Part shown: one piece after another, positions 4,177-50,818 of the stretch | Numbering within the stretch: position 1 is the stretch's first letter | Layout: every line of letters begins with the position of its first letter | NCBI GenBank assembly: GCA_947442505.1 | Contig: CANEVR010000007.1 | Span: 1-64,000, forward strand | Length of the DNA stretch: 64,000 nucleotides | Source of the DNA: Flavobacteriales bacterium | GTDB lineage: Bacteria; Bacteroidota; Bacteroidia; Flavobacteriales_D; Sanyastnellaceae | Direction: 5' to 3' | Translations under genes and position numbers: made by a program | The notes under the pieces: generated by a model | Database searches by the model: none | Told to the model about the DNA's origin: nothing | What the model saw: only the letters and a program-made list of their open reading frames with translations

Positions 4177-5461
4177 GCCAAACGCCCTGGGTGTGTTGTT
4201 CTATTCTACACCAATTGGCCACTTCAATTCCCAAAATAGCGGCGATTTTATTGTTGCTTTCTAGGACAACAATTTTGGATTTCAATGCCCCAGCAATTCC
4301 TTTTTGGTTGAGGTAATCAGAAATAAGAACGTGTCCAGACATTCCAAAGGGTTGAAACTTTTCTCCATTGCGCCATGGTCTGATGGTACATGGAAATTCA
4401 ATTTTACTTAAATCCAATTGAAGATGTGTTTTATCACCATACCATGCAGAATTGGGCAGTAGAATTTTTTTTCCTTGCCAAGAACTGAGATCCAAAAAGA
4501 AAGGGCTGTGGATTTCATAGGTTTCCGGCACATCTTGGTTGAGCAGGCTGACCTTGAAAGTATTGTTGTCTTTCCAAAGGATATGGCTTGGGCTCTCTAT
4601 TTTTTTACCATTCTCCATCCCTTCCCAATTGGAAATGGCAGTGATTTGATCTGGACTAAATCCCAATGGTGTTAGCCAATGAAACAAGGGTGTTGAAAGC
4701 GGAAGGAATGATGGTGTTTTTTTACAATCAAAGGTTTGAATGTCATTGTTATCGGTTACAACTTCATTCAGGAAAGCGTGCATCAGATAATAATTCCAAG
4801 CTTCTTTGTCTGATTTGCGTTGATTGAATGCTACAATCGCTTCATCGCTGATCCCAAATCTATGGTTGAGTTCAGGGATAATTTGATGCCTTAAATAGTT
4901 TCGGTTGTACTTATCAGACTGGTTTGACTCATCTTCTCGGAATGCCAACTTTCGTTTTATTGCCTCTTCATCAATGGTAGATTTCGGGATGTATAGCAAT
5001 GGTCTGAAGTACGGTGGAATCCACGGTAACATTCCAGAGTTTCCTTCCACCTGAAAACGCAATAGTTTGAGCCAATGGGTTTCCCATAGATCGCTGACAT
5101 GATGAGCCAGCACAATGGCCGACGCCTTTTCCTGGTGAAGAAGAATTTCAAAATAATCTCTTCTCTTTGATCTGGCCCATGATTGAATATTTTTTTCGCT
5201 TTCTGTGTATTGTACTTTGATACAATGCACAATGATTCCATTTTGCTTTCCCCATTCCTCCACAAGCTTTTGGTCCTTATCGCTCTCTTCGCCTCTGAGT
5301 TGATAATTGACATGTGCAATATGAAAAGGAATGCGTGCTTCAAGCATGAGTTGGGCCAATAACATGCTGTCTTTTCCTCCGCTAACGCCGAGAATAAAGC
5401 GGCTGCCTTCTCTGAAGAAATGATTGAAGGTGGATTTTATTTCGTGGACCAGATTCACCAT
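4142..5461 (-). CDS. tilS: tRNA(Ile)-lysidine synthase TilS
   Basis: TilS uses ATP and lysine to convert C34 of the CAU-anticodon tRNA-Ile to lysidine, making it read AUA; it is essential in most bacteria. The PP-loop ATPase motif GVSGGKDSMLLAQ is near residue 26, followed by HVNYQLRGEESD, LAHHVSDLWET and DESNQSDKYNRNYLRH, all in family order. The C-terminal region with RPWRNGEKFQPFGMSG matches the TilS substrate-binding domain. The start is ATG 5461 (439 aa), two bases after the pabB stop; a frame extending to 5500 would run into pabB. Co-transcription with pabB is likely. The DNWET-type motif is slightly altered, as often in this phylum. Confidence 0.92.
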   Translation of the reverse strand: MVNLVHEIKSTFNHFFREGSRFILGVSGGKDSMLLAQLMLEARIPFHIAHVNYQLRGEESDKDQKLVEEWGKQNGIIVHCIKVQYTESEKNIQSWARSKRRDYFEILLHQEKASAIVLAHHVSDLWETHWLKLLRFQVEGNSGMLPWIPPYFRPLLYIPKSTIDEEAIKRKLAFREDESNQSDKYNRNYLRHQIIPELNHRFGISDEAIVAFNQRKSDKEAWNYYLMHAFLNEVVTDNNDIQTFDCKKTPSFLPLSTPLFHWLTPLGFSPDQITAISNWEGMENGKKIESPSHILWKDNNTFKVSLLNQDVPETYEIHSPFFLDLSSWQGKKILLPNSAWYGDKTHLQLDLSKIEFPCTIRPWRNGEKFQPFGMSGHVLISDYLNQKGIAGALKSKIVVLESNNKIAAILGIEVANWCRIEQHTQGVWLIHPFPAQSTE

Positions 5462-5463
5462 GT

Positions 5464-6594
5464 TTAGGGATTGATTAAACTTTGGGCTTTCAACCAACAT
5501 TCTTGGTATTCTTCTTTGAAGTTAGAATGCAGGGTAATGGCTCCGCCGATGCCAATGGAGGCTTGGTGGGAATTGTTGTTCCAGTAGATGCTGCGAATGA
5601 TGACATTGAGATCGAAATCTCCATTGGGTTGGATGATGCCCAAGGTTCCGCTGTACCAACCTCGGGGTGCGGGCTCCAATTGGTGCATGGTTTCTACAGC
5701 TTTTTTCTTGGGCACTCCAGTCATAGATCCCATAGGGAACATGGCGGACATGATGGAGGTGAAGGTTGTCTCAGATTTTATTCGGCACTGAACAGTAGAA
5801 ATCAAATGATGCAATTTTGGAAACGAATGGATCTGCGCGAGCGCTGTAACTGTTACACTTCCTTTTTGAGCAATTTTGCTGAGATCATTTCGCACCAAAT
5901 CAACAATCATGGTGTTTTCTGTTTTGTCTTTGGCGGATGAAGAGAGTTGACTTTTCAACTCTTGATCTTCTGCTAAGGAAGCGCCTTTTTTAATGGTGCC
6001 TTTGATGGGTTGAGAGCTCAAGCATTCTCCTTTTTTTTGAATGAATCGTTCAGGAGAAAGGCACATCAAATGGTGCTCTTTCCATTGCACGTAGGCCGCA
6101 TGAGGAGCTGGATTGGATTGAAACAATTGCAACCAGTGTTGATAGGGGTCGAGATTGGAAATATCTGCCTTTAGCTGTGTACAGTAGTTGGTTTCATAAT
6201 AGTTTCCCCTTTCAAGATGCGTTTTAATTTTGAATAACTTCTCGTAATAGGATTCTTCGTTTTCAACGGGAATAAAATGCAGCGATTGGCGCTTGTTGTT
6301 TTCTAGGTCAATGGCGTTTTCTTCAAACCATTCCATTTTTTCTGGAACAATGAAGAGTATTGCGGGTTGAATGGGGTTGTTTTTTAATTCAACGCCCAAA
6401 TGTAAAAAACCAGCCTCGTAGGAAATCGCGGTAAATATGCATTTTCCTTTTTCTTTATTCAGCCAGGCCTGTGCTTTTTCCCATGAATCTTGTTCAATGG
6501 GAAAAGGAAGGACAAACTCCGATTGGATGCCCCAAGCTTTGCAGCCATTGCCTCTTTCTTTTGAGGCTGGTAGATGAATAAAGAAATCTTGCAT
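5464..6594 (-). CDS. pabB: Aminodeoxychorismate synthase component I (PabB)
   Basis: A chorismate-binding-family enzyme of 376 residues, in the short PabB range. It aminates chorismate to 4-amino-4-deoxychorismate, the precursor of 4-aminobenzoate for folate. Diagnostic motifs are SSQPIKGTIKKG, MIVDLVRNDLSKIA, FPMGSMTGVPKKKAVETM and YSGTLGIIQPNGDFDLNVIIR, with IGIGGAIT near the end. Anthranilate or isochorismate synthases share the fold, but length, motif details and the absence of trp neighbours favour PabB. PabA and PabC are not adjacent. It is followed by tilS with a two-base gap, and a strong terminator separates it from the Bax-inhibitor gene upstream, so it probably has its own promoter. 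Confidence 0.88.
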   Translation of the reverse strand: MQDFFIHLPASKERGNGCKAWGIQSEFVLPFPIEQDSWEKAQAWLNKEKGKCIFTAISYEAGFLHLGVELKNNPIQPAILFIVPEKMEWFEENAIDLENNKRQSLHFIPVENEESYYEKLFKIKTHLERGNYYETNYCTQLKADISNLDPYQHWLQLFQSNPAPHAAYVQWKEHHLMCLSPERFIQKKGECLSSQPIKGTIKKGASLAEDQELKSQLSSSAKDKTENTMIVDLVRNDLSKIAQKGSVTVTALAQIHSFPKLHHLISTVQCRIKSETTFTSIMSAMFPMGSMTGVPKKKAVETMHQLEPAPRGWYSGTLGIIQPNGDFDLNVIIRSIYWNNNSHQASIGIGGAITLHSNFKEEYQECWLKAQSLINP

Positions 6595-6597
6595 GAT

Positions 6598-6621
6598 AAC
6601 AAAAACCCGCCTAGTGGCGGG
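6598..6621 (-). terminator. Intrinsic terminator after the Bax-inhibitor-1 gene
   Basis: CCCGCC (6606-6611), loop TAGT, GGCGGG (6616-6621). On the minus strand the stem is followed by TTTTTG, and it lies 25 bases beyond the upstream gene's stop. Adenines on the other side give limited bidirectional potential. Confidence 0.85.
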
Positions 6622-6646
6622 CTTTTAAAAAAAGTTGTTTCATTTG

Positions 6647-7357
6647 TTAATCACGGCTATTGCCAAAAATGCGCAATAGGTAGATAAATAGGTTAATGAA
6701 ATCCAAGTACAAGCTCAAAGCTCCCATAACGGCTAGCTTAGATGCTGCTGCTGTTCCATACTCCACGCCCATTCCAATTCTTTTCAAACGTTGAACGTCA
6801 TAAGCAGTAAGACCGGTGAAAACCAAAACGCCAACGCAGCTGATGATGTAGTCCAATTGCTCACTGTGCATGAACCAATTCACCAATGAGGCGATAATCA
6901 TTCCAAACAAGGCCATCATCAAGAAGGTGCCCATTTTGGTCAAATCCGTTTGTGTGGTATAGCCCAAGATGGCCATGGTACCAAAAAGTCCTGCAGTAAT
7001 GAAGAACACTTTGGCAATGGTTCCCAACGAGTAAACCAAGAAGATGGTGGAAAGGCTCATTCCCATCACCACCGCAAAGGCTGCGAAGGTTACGGTTAGT
7101 GCCATCGGGCTAAGTTTGTTGAAACCAAAGTTCATCACCAAGATGAAAATGAATGGGGCAAACATGAGCGCGTAAATCATCATGGTGCCGCCGCTGCTGA
7201 GCATGGACAACATGGTTTCTGAAAATTGAAAAGCGGTGATGCCGGAGATGATCAATGCCAAAGACATCAGACCAAATACGCGGTTCATGAACGCTTTTAC
7301 ACTGGATGAACTTACTTCATCAATGGAGAAATCTCTTTGAAAATCGGGTGTATTCAT
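6647..7357 (-). CDS. Bax inhibitor-1 / YccA family membrane protein
   Basis: A 236-residue inner-membrane protein with seven hydrophobic segments, beginning after a ~20-residue cytoplasmic head. SVKAFMNRVFGLMSLALIIS, FFITAGLFGTMAILGYTTQTDL and GLTAYDVQRLKRIG are typical of the family, whose bacterial members include YccA (an FtsH modulator) and pH-sensitive Ca2+ leak channels. Which role applies cannot be told from sequence. Its ATG lies one base after the stop of a folE fragment, so this gene was probably once translationally coupled to an intact folE. It ends in a clear terminator. Confidence 0.9.
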   Translation of the reverse strand: MNTPDFQRDFSIDEVSSSSVKAFMNRVFGLMSLALIISGITAFQFSETMLSMLSSGGTMMIYALMFAPFIFILVMNFGFNKLSPMALTVTFAAFAVVMGMSLSTIFLVYSLGTIAKVFFITAGLFGTMAILGYTTQTDLTKMGTFLMMALFGMIIASLVNWFMHSEQLDYIISCVGVLVFTGLTAYDVQRLKRIGMGVEYGTAAASKLAVMGALSLYLDFINLFIYLLRIFGNSRD

Positions 7358-47536: not shown

Positions 47537-49318
47537 TCAAATGCGAATTCCAATGACTAGGATGTCATCGGTTTGCTCATGATCTCCTTTCCATTGATTG
47601 AAGGCATTAAGCAGTTTTTCTCTTTGCTGTAGATGCCCTTCTGTTGCTATAGAAGTCAATAATTCTTTCAAGGATTTTCGCATGAATTTCTTTTCCAAGG
47701 CTCCTCCAAACTGATCAGCATATCCATCGCTGAAAACAAATACCATATCATTTTTTTGAATGTCATTGCTGTGTGTTGTGAAGACATTGTGGGTATTGGC
47801 ATCATTGCCGATGCTCTTTTTATCGCCTTTAATTTCTATCAGTTGGCCATCTCTTATGATGATAACATTGTTTTGCGCACCTGAAAATTCCAGGACCATA
47901 TTGTCATAATCCACAGAGCACAGCGCAATGTCCATCCCATCTTTGATTTGGTTTTCATTGTTTGTGTTGAATGCCGCAGCGGCTATCCTGTTTACTTGAT
48001 TTAGAATTTGCCCAGGCTTGGTGTAAACCTTGGTCACGTGGTTCAATGCATTGTGCGCAATGAGACTCATGAAGGCTCCAGGAACGCCGTGACCAGTGCA
48101 ATCAGCCGCGGCAAAAAGTTTTTTGTTTCCTTGTTGTTGGAACCAATAAAAATCACCAGAGACAACGTCTTTGGGCAGATAGAGAATAAAGTGTTCAGGG
48201 AATATTTTTTGAATGGATGCCGTATCGGGAAGAATAGAATCTTGTAGTCGTTTTGCGTAAGAGATACTCGATTTTAAATCGGCATACAAGGATTGAATCT
48301 GTTCCTTTTGTTCTTCTGCAGTGTTTTTTTGTCGTGTGATTTCTTGTGTTTGTTCCGCTACTTTTTCCTCCATGCGGTGGCGATAGAAAGAGAGGTCATC
48401 TTTCATTCGGAGCAAAGCTTTTCCCATCTCATCCTCATTGGATAGGGGCTCAAATGAAGCTTCAAGGTTTCCGCGTCCAATTTCAGTTGCAAAGTTTTTG
48501 GTTCGTTCAAAGTTTTGCATCAATTTGTCCATGGCAATGCTCATGTCACCAATCTCATCATTGAATTTGGGCAGTTCCTCTTGGCTATATATTCCAAATG
48601 ATAATTTCTTTAAACTTTTTCTTATTGTTCTGACGCGTGAAGTAATGGATTGACTCGTGAAATAGGCAATTGTAATACCCATTAGTATGATGATGACGCC
48701 AAAAAGAGACAACAGATAATAGAGGTCATCAAATGATTGATCCATGGACTCTCTCTCTTGCGAGATGGATTCTTTGAATTGATTGAGGAGATCTTTGAGT
48801 ATGAATTGGGTTCTTTCCACTTCAAATGGAATTTCTGTTCCTTGAAGAAAAAGGTCTTCTGACAACATGATGTTCATCGGGTCATTGTAGCTGTCAAAGC
48901 AGCATAGGGTCTCTCTCAGTTTGGAATATTTCTCATTGAGCAGTTTCCAGTGACCAATGACAAGTGCCCACTCTTCTTTTTGTTTTTCTGACCAAAGGTG
49001 ATGCAACTTTTGAATGGCTGAAATTTGATTTGGAATGATTGAATCACATAGTGCAATGAAAGTTCTTCTCTCAATGTGGTCCTCATTTCTTTGAACATAT
49101 GCCCATTGTTTTGCAAGATCAAAAGATTGTTCTATGCTCAATAATAGATTTCTATTCAAAGTCAATGCTGGCAAATGAACGTTGTTCATTTGGTGGTTGA
49201 TTTTCTCTGCCTTGCTCAGTGTGGTTTGCACAAAGAACAATGCAACCATGAGCACCGCAATGAATATTCCAAATCCAAGCGACAATCTCAATGGTATGGT
49301 AAATCGCCATTTGCGCAT
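47537..49318 (-). CDS. Membrane HAMP / PP2C (SpoIIE-type) phosphatase
   Basis: 593 residues. Span 1 (LGFGIFIAVLMVALFFV) is followed by a ~170-residue periplasmic four-helix-type sensor, span 2 (LLSLFGVIIILMGITIAYF), HAMP (~220-290; SRVRTIRKSLKKLSFGIYSQ), a coiled coil, and a C-terminal PP2C-like phosphatase with LPKDVVSGDFYWF, AAADCTGHGVPGAFMSLIAH and VFVFSDGYADQFGG, which hold the metal-binding aspartates. It probably dephosphorylates a serine/threonine-phosphorylated partner such as an anti-sigma antagonist. Its ATG overlaps the TPR gene's stop (TAATG), the last gene of a three-gene operon. Confidence 0.9.
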   Translation of the reverse strand: MRKWRFTIPLRLSLGFGIFIAVLMVALFFVQTTLSKAEKINHQMNNVHLPALTLNRNLLLSIEQSFDLAKQWAYVQRNEDHIERRTFIALCDSIIPNQISAIQKLHHLWSEKQKEEWALVIGHWKLLNEKYSKLRETLCCFDSYNDPMNIMLSEDLFLQGTEIPFEVERTQFILKDLLNQFKESISQERESMDQSFDDLYYLLSLFGVIIILMGITIAYFTSQSITSRVRTIRKSLKKLSFGIYSQEELPKFNDEIGDMSIAMDKLMQNFERTKNFATEIGRGNLEASFEPLSNEDEMGKALLRMKDDLSFYRHRMEEKVAEQTQEITRQKNTAEEQKEQIQSLYADLKSSISYAKRLQDSILPDTASIQKIFPEHFILYLPKDVVSGDFYWFQQQGNKKLFAAADCTGHGVPGAFMSLIAHNALNHVTKVYTKPGQILNQVNRIAAAAFNTNNENQIKDGMDIALCSVDYDNMVLEFSGAQNNVIIIRDGQLIEIKGDKKSIGNDANTHNVFTTHSNDIQKNDMVFVFSDGYADQFGGALEKKFMRKSLKELLTSIATEGHLQQREKLLNAFNQWKGDHEQTDDILVIGIRI

Positions 49319-50223
49319 TATTCTTGAGGGAATTTGGTTTTGAATTCTTGTTGAAGTTGATTGAATTGCTCATCATTGCCAATGGCACGGTAGATAAACA
49401 TCAATGCTTTGTATTGCGTGGCGCTTTTGGGGCAATCGTTGAAAGTGGCTTGCGCGTAAGGGAGTGCTTGATGAAAAAGAGCCAGGGCATCATCCTGAAT
49501 TTTCATCAAGGCATCAAATTCAATTTTTGCATCAATCTGTTTGATTTTAAATACACCAATGTTGTAATAAATGATGGCGATGTTGTTCATGGCCTCACAA
49601 TCTGTGGGGTCCTCTTTCAATATTTTCTCATAGAGCTGAATGCACCTGTTGAGCCACTCCAAAGCATCGACATCTGCTTCCCAGAACTCGTAGTATCGTT
49701 CAGATTTTCTTTTTTCAAATTCAATTCTTAGTGCGCGTGAAGATTGTGGTGTGATGCTTTTGTTGTTCCAAGATTCAAAATAGTCATAGGCAGCATCAGC
49801 GCTGTTTTCATTGCCCTGTTGAAATTGTTTGGCCTTCAGCAGTGCATCGTTGTATAGGGTGCTGATGATATACTTCTGGGCCTTATTGATGTTTTCTATC
49901 AATAGCTGATCTTGATTAAAATTTAGTTTCAAAGCTTCATCAAAAGCCAATAATGCATTTTCACGGAATTGTTTACTGGGTTCCAATTCAGGTGTCAATT
50001 TGTAATTTTCTTTCAGAAAAAAGCCCAGTGTATAGTGCGCATAGGACTCATTGTTTTCTTGTTCAATGACCTTGTACATTTTTTGTAAAGCGGCACTGGC
50101 GTTTTTATTTTTTTCATAATCAACCACCACAGCATCAGTCAAGGCGTGTTGTCCCCAACCATGAGAGAGCAGCAATCCAATGATTACTGTGAGAACTGTA
50201 TTTTTTATTGATTGACGCGCCAT
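49318..50223 (-). CDS. Exported TPR protein
   Basis: 301 residues with a signal peptide (IKNTVLTVIIGLLLSHGWGQ) and several tetratricopeptide-like units: QKMYKVIEQENNESYAHYTL, ALLAFDEALKLNFNQDQLLI, LNRCIQLYEKILKEDPTDCE, AMNNIAIIYYNIGVFKIKQ and KSATQYKALMFIYRAIGNDE. TPR domains bind proteins; here the likely partners are the products of the genes on either side. ATG 50223 overlaps the yfiR-like gene by 19 bp, and its stop overlaps the PP2C gene, so all three are translationally linked. Confidence 0.85.
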   Translation of the reverse strand: MARQSIKNTVLTVIIGLLLSHGWGQHALTDAVVVDYEKNKNASAALQKMYKVIEQENNESYAHYTLGFFLKENYKLTPELEPSKQFRENALLAFDEALKLNFNQDQLLIENINKAQKYIISTLYNDALLKAKQFQQGNENSADAAYDYFESWNNKSITPQSSRALRIEFEKRKSERYYEFWEADVDALEWLNRCIQLYEKILKEDPTDCEAMNNIAIIYYNIGVFKIKQIDAKIEFDALMKIQDDALALFHQALPYAQATFNDCPKSATQYKALMFIYRAIGNDEQFNQLQQEFKTKFPQE

Positions 50224-50741
50224 TGCATGATTTTTATTCCTGGTTGTATTTGGTCCTCATTCATTGCTACTTCATTCAATTCATAACGGACACTGCCATT
50301 GACAGATTTGAAGTTGATGTGTGCGCCGCTCGATAGCGCCCCTTCCCAATTGCTGACCATCAAGGTTGATTTTTCTTTCAGCAATTTTTGAATTTGACTC
50401 CAATCGCTTTTTTTGGTTTTGTCCACATATACCAAATGGGTGTTGACGGGAATGCTTTGCGCATTGTTGGTTTGCACAACCTCTATGGGCTGAAGTCCGA
50501 TGGTTTGGTTTTTGTATTTTGAAACAAAATGATTATAGACGGCTTCGTTTCCAACAATGACAATTTTGAAGTTTCCTTTTTTCATTGAACTTGGCCATTG
50601 ATTGTTATTGGCAAATTGATAGAGAAAGTTGGCCTCCATCATCGAGCGTGTATCGCTTTCATCAATTTTTTGCGCTAATAGTCCAAAGGAGATGAACATC
50701 CCCAGCAATACCAATGATACTTTCAGAATGGTCTTGGACAT
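50205..50741 (-). CDS. YfiR-like (DUF4154) periplasmic protein
   Basis: 178 residues from ATG 50741: a signal peptide (ILKVSLVLLGMFISFGLLAQ), then the YfiR/DUF4154 pattern ANFLYQFANNNQWPSS, FKIVIVGNEAVYNHFVSKYK, THLVYVDKTKKSDWSQI and GSVRYELNEVAMNEDQIQPG. In Pseudomonas, YfiR is a periplasmic repressor of the membrane cyclase YfiN. Here there is no cyclase; a HAMP-phosphatase is encoded two genes on. A frame to 50777 would read through a hairpin, so the start at 50741 is preferred. Confidence 0.85.
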   Translation of the reverse strand: MSKTILKVSLVLLGMFISFGLLAQKIDESDTRSMMEANFLYQFANNNQWPSSMKKGNFKIVIVGNEAVYNHFVSKYKNQTIGLQPIEVVQTNNAQSIPVNTHLVYVDKTKKSDWSQIQKLLKEKSTLMVSNWEGALSSGAHINFKSVNGSVRYELNEVAMNEDQIQPGIKIMQWRVNQ

Positions 50742-50751
50742 ATTACGAAAA

Positions 50752-50769
50752 TAGGGGCCTAAGCCCCTA
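50752..50769 (-). terminator. Hairpin between ferritin and the yfiR-like gene
   Basis: TAGGGGC (50752-50758) pairs with GCCCCTA (50763-50769) around CTAA. On the minus strand the stem is followed by TTTTCG, a short U-run. It can end the ferritin transcript; the yfiR-like ATG lies ten bases beyond it. Confidence 0.55.
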
Positions 50770-50818
50770 AATTTCAATGCTGAAGAGCCATTCCATACAC
50801 GATGGAATGTTAATTCAA

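Follow-up and report, generated by a model that had tools for sequence, protein, structure and literature searches.

YfiR and the SiaABC proteins are both known through the control of biofilms by cyclic di-GMP (c-di-GMP). In the YfiBNR system of Pseudomonas aeruginosa and Escherichia coli, a periplasmic DUF4154 protein, YfiR, is encoded beside a HAMP-linked inner-membrane enzyme, YfiN, which has a periplasmic PAS/CHASE8 receptor and a GGDEF output. YfiR and the PAS receptor of YfiN have been proposed to form a modular system with histidine kinase, GGDEF-EAL, HPT and methyl-accepting chemotaxis protein (MCP) outputs (PMC3375315). In the SiaABCD system of P. aeruginosa, siaA, siaB and siaC, encoding a membrane HAMP-PP2C phosphatase, a kinase and a protein with a phosphothreonine motif, respectively, share one operon, and SiaD is a diguanylate cyclase. 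Here we describe a three-gene locus, designated Y-T-P, in a Flavobacteriales bacterium (GenBank assembly GCA_947442505.1, contig CANEVR010000007.1, positions 1 to 64,000; this whole stretch of 64,000 nucleotides is referred to as the window), which recalls both systems.

We hold with moderate confidence that Y-T-P is one transmembrane signalling module which feeds envelope signals into a partner switch of SiaB and SiaC that operates without c-di-GMP. The observations behind this reading are the co-conserved gene order and domains of the trio, the SiaA-type catalytic domain of P, the presence of SiaB and SiaC, and the absence of any detectable GGDEF or CHASE8 domain.

Y, T and P form a conserved operon-like trio

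All three genes, as well as the features described below, lie on the minus strand. Y (50205..50741) encodes an exported YfiR/HmsC-like (DUF4154) protein of 178 residues (Pfam PF13689, E = 2.2e-23; 83 bits, cut-off 24.9), T (49318..50223) an exported tetratricopeptide repeat (TPR) protein of 301 residues (Pfam TPR_17, 1.9e-8) and P (47537..49318) a membrane phosphatase of 593 residues (Pfam SpoIIE, 1.7e-18, with a match to Protein Data Bank (PDB) entry 6k4e). The original prediction, made from the letters of the window, was of three overlapping genes for an exported YfiR-like protein, an exported TPR protein and a membrane phosphatase with HAMP and SpoIIE-type domains. The overlaps are indeed 19 bp between Y and T (50205..50223) and 1 bp between T and P (TAATG; 49318..49318), and the protein assignments are borne out by the Pfam matches, by Sec-type signal sequences, read by eye and without a lipobox cysteine, at the starts of Y and T, and by two transmembrane (TM) helices in P; the HAMP match falls below its cut-off. 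T is modelled by AlphaFold as a confident all-helical TPR solenoid (mean predicted local distance difference test score, pLDDT, 92.2), and its best match by VIA is 4i17, a TPR protein of Bacteroides fragilis (Z 12.9, root-mean-square deviation 5.3, 209 residues aligned). At three loci (L110, L114 and L115), T is present in two tandem copies between Y and P.

Y was sought in all 114 genomes of our family sample and matched in 87, including that of the window; the flanks of the other 86 were compared. The trio is complete in 81 of these, and in the remaining five the contig runs out past Y or inside the operon. Genus g20 gave no Y match at first; T and P were found there, and a profile search upstream of them then recovered a diverged Y in 17 of 17 cases (E values from 7e-12 to 3e-8 or better). 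Conserved linkage, on which the original prediction had staked its case, is thus seen in 99 of the 114 genomes (the window, 81 and 17), always with one gene order and on one strand. In four further genomes, T and/or P turned up but Y did not: too little contig is left in G020 and G004 for a complete Y, and truncated matches suggest that a contig end also accounts for the loss of Y in G033 and G071. In all nine of these incomplete genomes, the gap either lies at a contig end or could be explained by one. G100 contains a fused remnant (L175:1650-2810), in which a single frame leads from the Y signal sequence, followed by about 18 residues, straight into HAMP-PP2C, with the loss of T and of the four-helix sensor; no SiaC was detected in this genome, which is 61% complete. 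The last five genomes (G002, G003, G103, G105 and G106) contain no orthologue of Y, T or P, yielding weaker paralogue matches or none. A scan of close relatives returned 22 loci, mostly from environmental metagenome-assembled genomes labelled Flavobacteriales, with one outlier at 22% identity; the labels were given by the depositors and appear mistaken in some cases ("Chryseobacterium gleum"). The family carrying the trio consists of aquatic Flavobacteriales-type bacteria.

The spacing of the trio is translationally tight, if looser in g20: the Y-T start-stop distance ranges from -25 to +1 nucleotides in 81 of the 82 loci in which both genes were called (-19 in 29 loci, -4 in 21). By contrast, of the 86 loci compared, 83 were testable for the ferritin gene found upstream in the window: it keeps its place and orientation in 47, is inverted in 6 and lies elsewhere or is missing in 30. 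The NAD synthase gene downstream is shared by 3 of 71. The trio therefore stays intact where its surroundings do not, and its linkage is more than chance. Y and T could conceivably serve another envelope function and be merely co-transcribed with P, as an operon of convenience. Such an arrangement would sit well with the fast evolution of Y and T and with a mirror-tree test that was uninformative (see below), but Y, T and P are co-retained while the flanks change, no lone Y was seen in the family apart from contig ends, and none of the 114 genomes offers a CHASE8 partner for Y, which makes this explanation decidedly improbable.

P joins a predicted four-helix receptor to a SiaA-type phosphatase domain

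P is built, in order, of TM1, a predicted periplasmic four-helix sensor, TM2, one or two HAMP domains, a coiled coil and a SpoIIE-type PP2C domain. The latter (residues 401-592; 47543..48118), assigned from Pfam and from invariant residues, retains all the acidic motifs of SpoIIE/PP2C phosphatases (GDF, DCTGHG, DGMD, SDG and QTDD), and D389, D406, H410, D460, D463, D531, D584 and D585 are invariant across 29 alignment rows. No GGDEF domain was detected in any of the 114 family genomes (8 of 14 control genomes matched). The original proposal that a phosphatase takes the place of the cyclase as output is supported. Residues 315-592 are closest to SiaA (match to 6k4e, 4.9e-33), 6k4e being the PP2C domain of this protein (PMC7647112). 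With the NCBIfam SiaA model NF038263, six P proteins of full length scored 201-233 bits and one of the shortened kind (see below) 166, and among the five SpoIIE proteins of the window genome P scored best (201 bits; the others 168, 166, 47 and none). Since the equivalog cut-off of this model is 700 bits, and all scanned P and window SpoIIE proteins fall below it, P can be placed by its sequence with SiaA as a class, that of membrane HAMP-PP2C proteins, and not as an equivalog; it nevertheless matches SiaA far better than SpoIIE. The match begins at residue 267 and covers model positions 335-657, leaving the sensor half of P unmatched.

The AlphaFold model of residues 1-275 (mean pLDDT 86.4, alignment of 86 rows) consists of helices 8-74, 82-104, 111-137 and 163-240; in it, TM1 and TM2 run on into a four-helix bundle that spans approximately residues 32-203 (48710..49225). 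Foldseek placed NarQ on top (6.8e-4). VIA-align superposed the sensor on MCP2201 (Z 16.5, 130 residues aligned, 2.0 Å), LytS from the XylFII complex (Z 14.9, 122 aligned, 1.9 Å), TorS from the TorT complex (Z 13.7, 131 aligned, 3.5 Å) and NarQ (Z 13.1, 221 aligned, 5.9 Å). Since helical bundles score high by default, all these comparisons denote likeness of fold only. Pfam 4HB did not match P. On the model, the sensor is predicted to be an all-helical bundle of the MCP/NarQ type rather than a PAS fold. CHASE8 gave no match in P at E ≤ 1 and none in the 114 genomes, with an E. coli control matching. The Yfi sensor logic originally attributed to the locus is supported only in part: the exported YfiR-like protein stands, but the PAS/CHASE8 receptor of the YfiN type is absent from P and from the whole family sample.

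The HAMP domain of P proved to be a common, not an essential, part. The first HAMP (residues 221-270; 48509..48658) matches Pfam at E = 7.4e-4 with 20.2 bits, below the 25-bit cut-off, and is conserved in the alignment except in rows L094 and L105; a second HAMP-like segment (approximately residues 271-310; 48389..48508) may follow, judging from the conserved pattern GxGNFxxxYxPLSxxDELGxALLxMRDDL. In eight genomes P is about 105 residues shorter; two of these P proteins were included in the alignment and have neither the first nor the second HAMP, which suggests that coupling from TM2 through the coiled coil to the PP2C domain is possible without it.

The YfiR-like protein and its partners inside and outside the family

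Y scores below the cut-offs of the NCBIfam YfiR-like model TOL_0243 (72 bits, cut-off 125) and the YfiR equivalog NF053586 (20 bits, cut-off 85). YfiR is reported to have two conserved cysteine pairs, one of them essential for stability (PMC4655355). The window Y contains no cysteine at all, and beyond residue 30 cysteine is also missing from 51 of the 103 Y sequences of the family. In the very diverged Y of g20 (L158-L174), cysteines at aligned positions 152 and 176 are invariant (17/17), a possible disulfide that is absent from the consensus of the other Y proteins. The family Y differs from 36 Y open reading frames found outside the family at reference positions 153, 168, 171 and 174, towards the C-terminus. 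The C-terminus of P. aeruginosa YfiR is described as binding YfiB and probably YfiN (PMC4887326, PMC4655355). Because the Y profile did not reach this YfiR in the PDB (no matches at E ≤ 0.01), its residue numbers are not mappable by alignment, and the statement on the C-terminus rests on the comparison of family with outside sequences plus the descriptions in these papers. The altered C-terminus would fit a changed partner, without proving one.

Among 395 genomes of the phylum, Y matched in 29, two of which are family members (the window included), leaving 27 outside. In 34 loci from the outside genomes the T profile found nothing, and the P profile found one strong match (L211, 7e-54), in its sensor half and not in the phosphatase. 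A selection of 24 proteins near outside Y genes, scanned with Pfam, included histidine kinases with CHASE8 and HAMP, a fusion of DUF4154 with a kinase, TonB receptors, periplasmic binding proteins and unrelated enzymes; none of the 24 carries a SpoIIE domain. The fusion (L231:5097-7244) unites DUF4154 and a histidine kinase in one protein. In the phylum sample, the trio is thus confined to one family. Bacteroidota loci with a DUF4154 gene and a CHASE8-HAMP histidine kinase resemble it in having a YfiR-like gene beside a HAMP receptor, but they combine a CHASE8 receptor with kinase output, often with a TonB receptor, and have neither T nor PP2C.

The L211 match comes from G258, of the same class but another family, where Y directly precedes a P-like receptor and T is absent (4544-7081). 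The receptor is 671 residues long, and its residues 18-374 match P profile positions 2-350 with 181.5 bits; a P-like sensor and HAMPs are followed by a GAF-PAS output instead of PP2C, and the protein ends without a kinase. This single case suggests that Y and the four-helix receptor constitute an exchangeable core to which T and PP2C are additions. The L211 Y lacks the Gly168 and Trp174 of the family, residues that might serve T (n = 1).

G258 also bears on the most conservative view of the locus, by which Y alone binds and represses the periplasmic domain of P, as YfiR does YfiN, with T being a passenger or chaperone. Y is a true DUF4154 protein, and G258 indicates that it can pair with a receptor of this kind without T. 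Yet the receptor is not PAS/CHASE8, the altered positions of the family Y fall in the region implicated in YfiN and YfiB binding, and every complete locus retains T, with a tandem duplicate in the three named above. We regard this view as rather unlikely, albeit the least so of the alternatives. YfiBNR thus resembles Y-T-P in pairing a periplasmic DUF4154 protein with a HAMP-linked membrane enzyme, and differs in receptor fold, in having no exported TPR protein and no PP2C output, in its GGDEF domain and in the conserved cysteine pairs of YfiR. A PAL/OmpA lipoprotein corresponding to YfiB does not occur at the locus, where only Y, T and P stand between the ferritin and NAD synthase genes; the rest of the genome was not searched for it.

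SiaB and SiaC in a family with no detectable diguanylate cyclase

SiaC (PF09345) was found in 101 of the 114 family genomes and a SiaB-like DUF6272 protein in 110. In the window genome, SiaB reaches 86.5 bits with NF038262 (cut-off 85) and SiaC 92 bits with NF038265, below the cut-off of 150. The phosphopeptide determined experimentally for SiaC is LLYLNTSSIK (PMC7647112); the window copy reads LEYFNTSSSK at this site, and the motif is NTSS in 19 of the 23 loci read, NSSS in three and NTAS in one (two genes were fetched twice, which brings NTSS to 17 of 21 genes). Judging from these motifs and profiles, SiaB kinase and SiaC with its T68 phosphosite have counterparts in the family, whereas none was detected for SiaD or for the GGDEF output of YfiBNR. 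The module probably feeds a SiaB/SiaC protein-phosphorylation circuit, with no c-di-GMP synthase detectable. Elsewhere in the family, SiaB-SiaC cassettes (L131:7224-7691, L149:7030-7958) share a conserved location, flanked on one side by a methyltransferase-like gene and on the other by a gene for an ABC-transporter-like protein of about 1000 residues; a SiaB adjoining SiaC is missing in the window genome.

Each of the 22 genomes of genus g17 has one P-class match at E ≤ 1e-20. In 21 of them P is accompanied by exactly one other SpoIIE protein; in the last, which is 63% complete, it is the sole one. The second protein is mostly about 410 residues long, and two that were scanned gave 37 and 55 bits to SiaA versus 224 for a g17 P. 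SiaC was found in 20 and SiaB in all 22 genomes. P, as the only SiaA-class phosphatase there, would be the natural SiaC phosphatase of this genus. SpoIIE phosphatases classically act on STAS proteins, and P might accordingly act on an RsbV/STAS anti-sigma antagonist instead of SiaC, with Y and T tuning the general stress response; STAS domain proteins are indeed present in 21 of the 22 g17 genomes. However, all but one of these genomes have the second SpoIIE protein, of a more classical type, which leaves SiaC to P, and P is the far closer relative of SiaA, so that we consider a STAS substrate unlikely. Across the family, 108 genomes have the trio, whole or split, and SiaC was found in 100 of them, as against one of six without an intact trio (Fisher p = 5e-5, uncorrected for ancestry, several of the six genomes being incomplete).

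Several observations weigh against a SiaB/SiaC module fed by Y-T-P. P, SiaC and the SiaB-like protein of the window genome are encoded on contigs C7, C47 and C67, respectively, in place of the single siaABC operon. This genome also has two other SiaA-class phosphatases (on C43 and C19), and P need therefore not be its sole SiaC phosphatase. The co-absence of SiaC and the trio stems mostly from one genus, g21 (9/10 versus 0/4), with small and partly incomplete genomes, and is possibly a single event; G002 has SiaC without the trio. The STAS proteins of g17 leave room for a substrate other than SiaC. In addition to a complete Y-T-P, G078 carries another T-P pair, on contig C32, with no Y detected, the contig end there being unchecked. 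Finally, the mirror-tree test, run on 38 genomes with all genes, was null: partial correlations within the trio (0.32-0.73) do not exceed those with the ferritin and DAO neighbours (0.23-0.67), and raw and KBL-corrected correlations are likewise not above those of neighbour genes.

Surroundings of the locus

In the window, the ferritin gene lies upstream of the trio on the same strand, and the NAD synthase gene is downstream and convergent. The gap between ferritin and Y contains two strong hairpins (50752-50809), of which a terminator-like one with a T tail (50752..50769) lies 10 nucleotides before the Y start codon; the 91-nucleotide spacer region folds with a z-score of -4.5. The terminator-like hairpin points to Y-T-P being transcribed mostly on its own, and the hairpins could also function as an attenuator. 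Sigma-70-like promoter matches occur at chance level (10 found versus 10.4 expected) and were not used. PADLOC gave no defence match for Y, T or P at E ≤ 0.001.

Discussion

We propose that, once exported, Y and T, singly or as a complex of the two, bind to the predicted four-helix bundle that P exposes in the periplasm, by analogy with TorT-TorS and XylFII-LytS, in which a periplasmic or extracellular protein sits on a helical-bundle sensor; these resemble P in sensor fold only, and differ in having histidine kinase output and periplasmic binding proteins, not YfiR or TPR proteins, as partners. From there, a conformational signal would travel through TM2, then the HAMPs, which one genus can do without, and on along a switch helix in the coiled coil until it reaches PP2C. 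P would remove from a SiaC-like protein the phosphate put on by SiaB-like kinases, and free SiaC would engage a target other than a diguanylate cyclase. As to sign, Y or Y-T may, by analogy, inhibit P until an envelope signal removes it. SiaABCD would thus be matched in its membrane HAMP-PP2C phosphatase, SiaB-like kinase and SiaC phosphothreonine motif, and departed from in gene arrangement, in the missing SiaD cyclase and in the added periplasmic partners Y and T.

According to the original prediction, the locus would be a new variant of the Yfi system. Swapped outputs as such have been described, but a phosphatase is not among them in the part of PMC3375315 available to us, which likewise describes neither a non-PAS receptor nor a TPR third gene, and our literature search found no paper combining YfiR and SpoIIE, with or without Bacteroidetes. 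More tentatively, and short of calling it probable, we suggest that the four-helix, double-HAMP receptor without PAS/CHASE8, with its signature around P50, W72, Q76 and F141-x-S-Y-x-D-P147, could represent a second class of YfiR-controlled receptors, which gained a TPR co-factor and a SiaA-type phosphatase in one family and a GAF-PAS output in another lineage, and which lets envelope signals act via SiaB/SiaC without a c-di-GMP synthase.

Parts of YfiR and SiaABC systems coexist in a family devoid of detectable GGDEF domains and, in the reading we favour, are joined there in one pathway. If this is correct, periplasmic YfiR control and the SiaC switch would both be separated from c-di-GMP. How SiaC exerts control without a cyclase, and how YfiR recognises a receptor without PAS, would become testable questions, and the orphan SiaB/SiaC cassettes of these bacteria would be supplied with their likely sensor.

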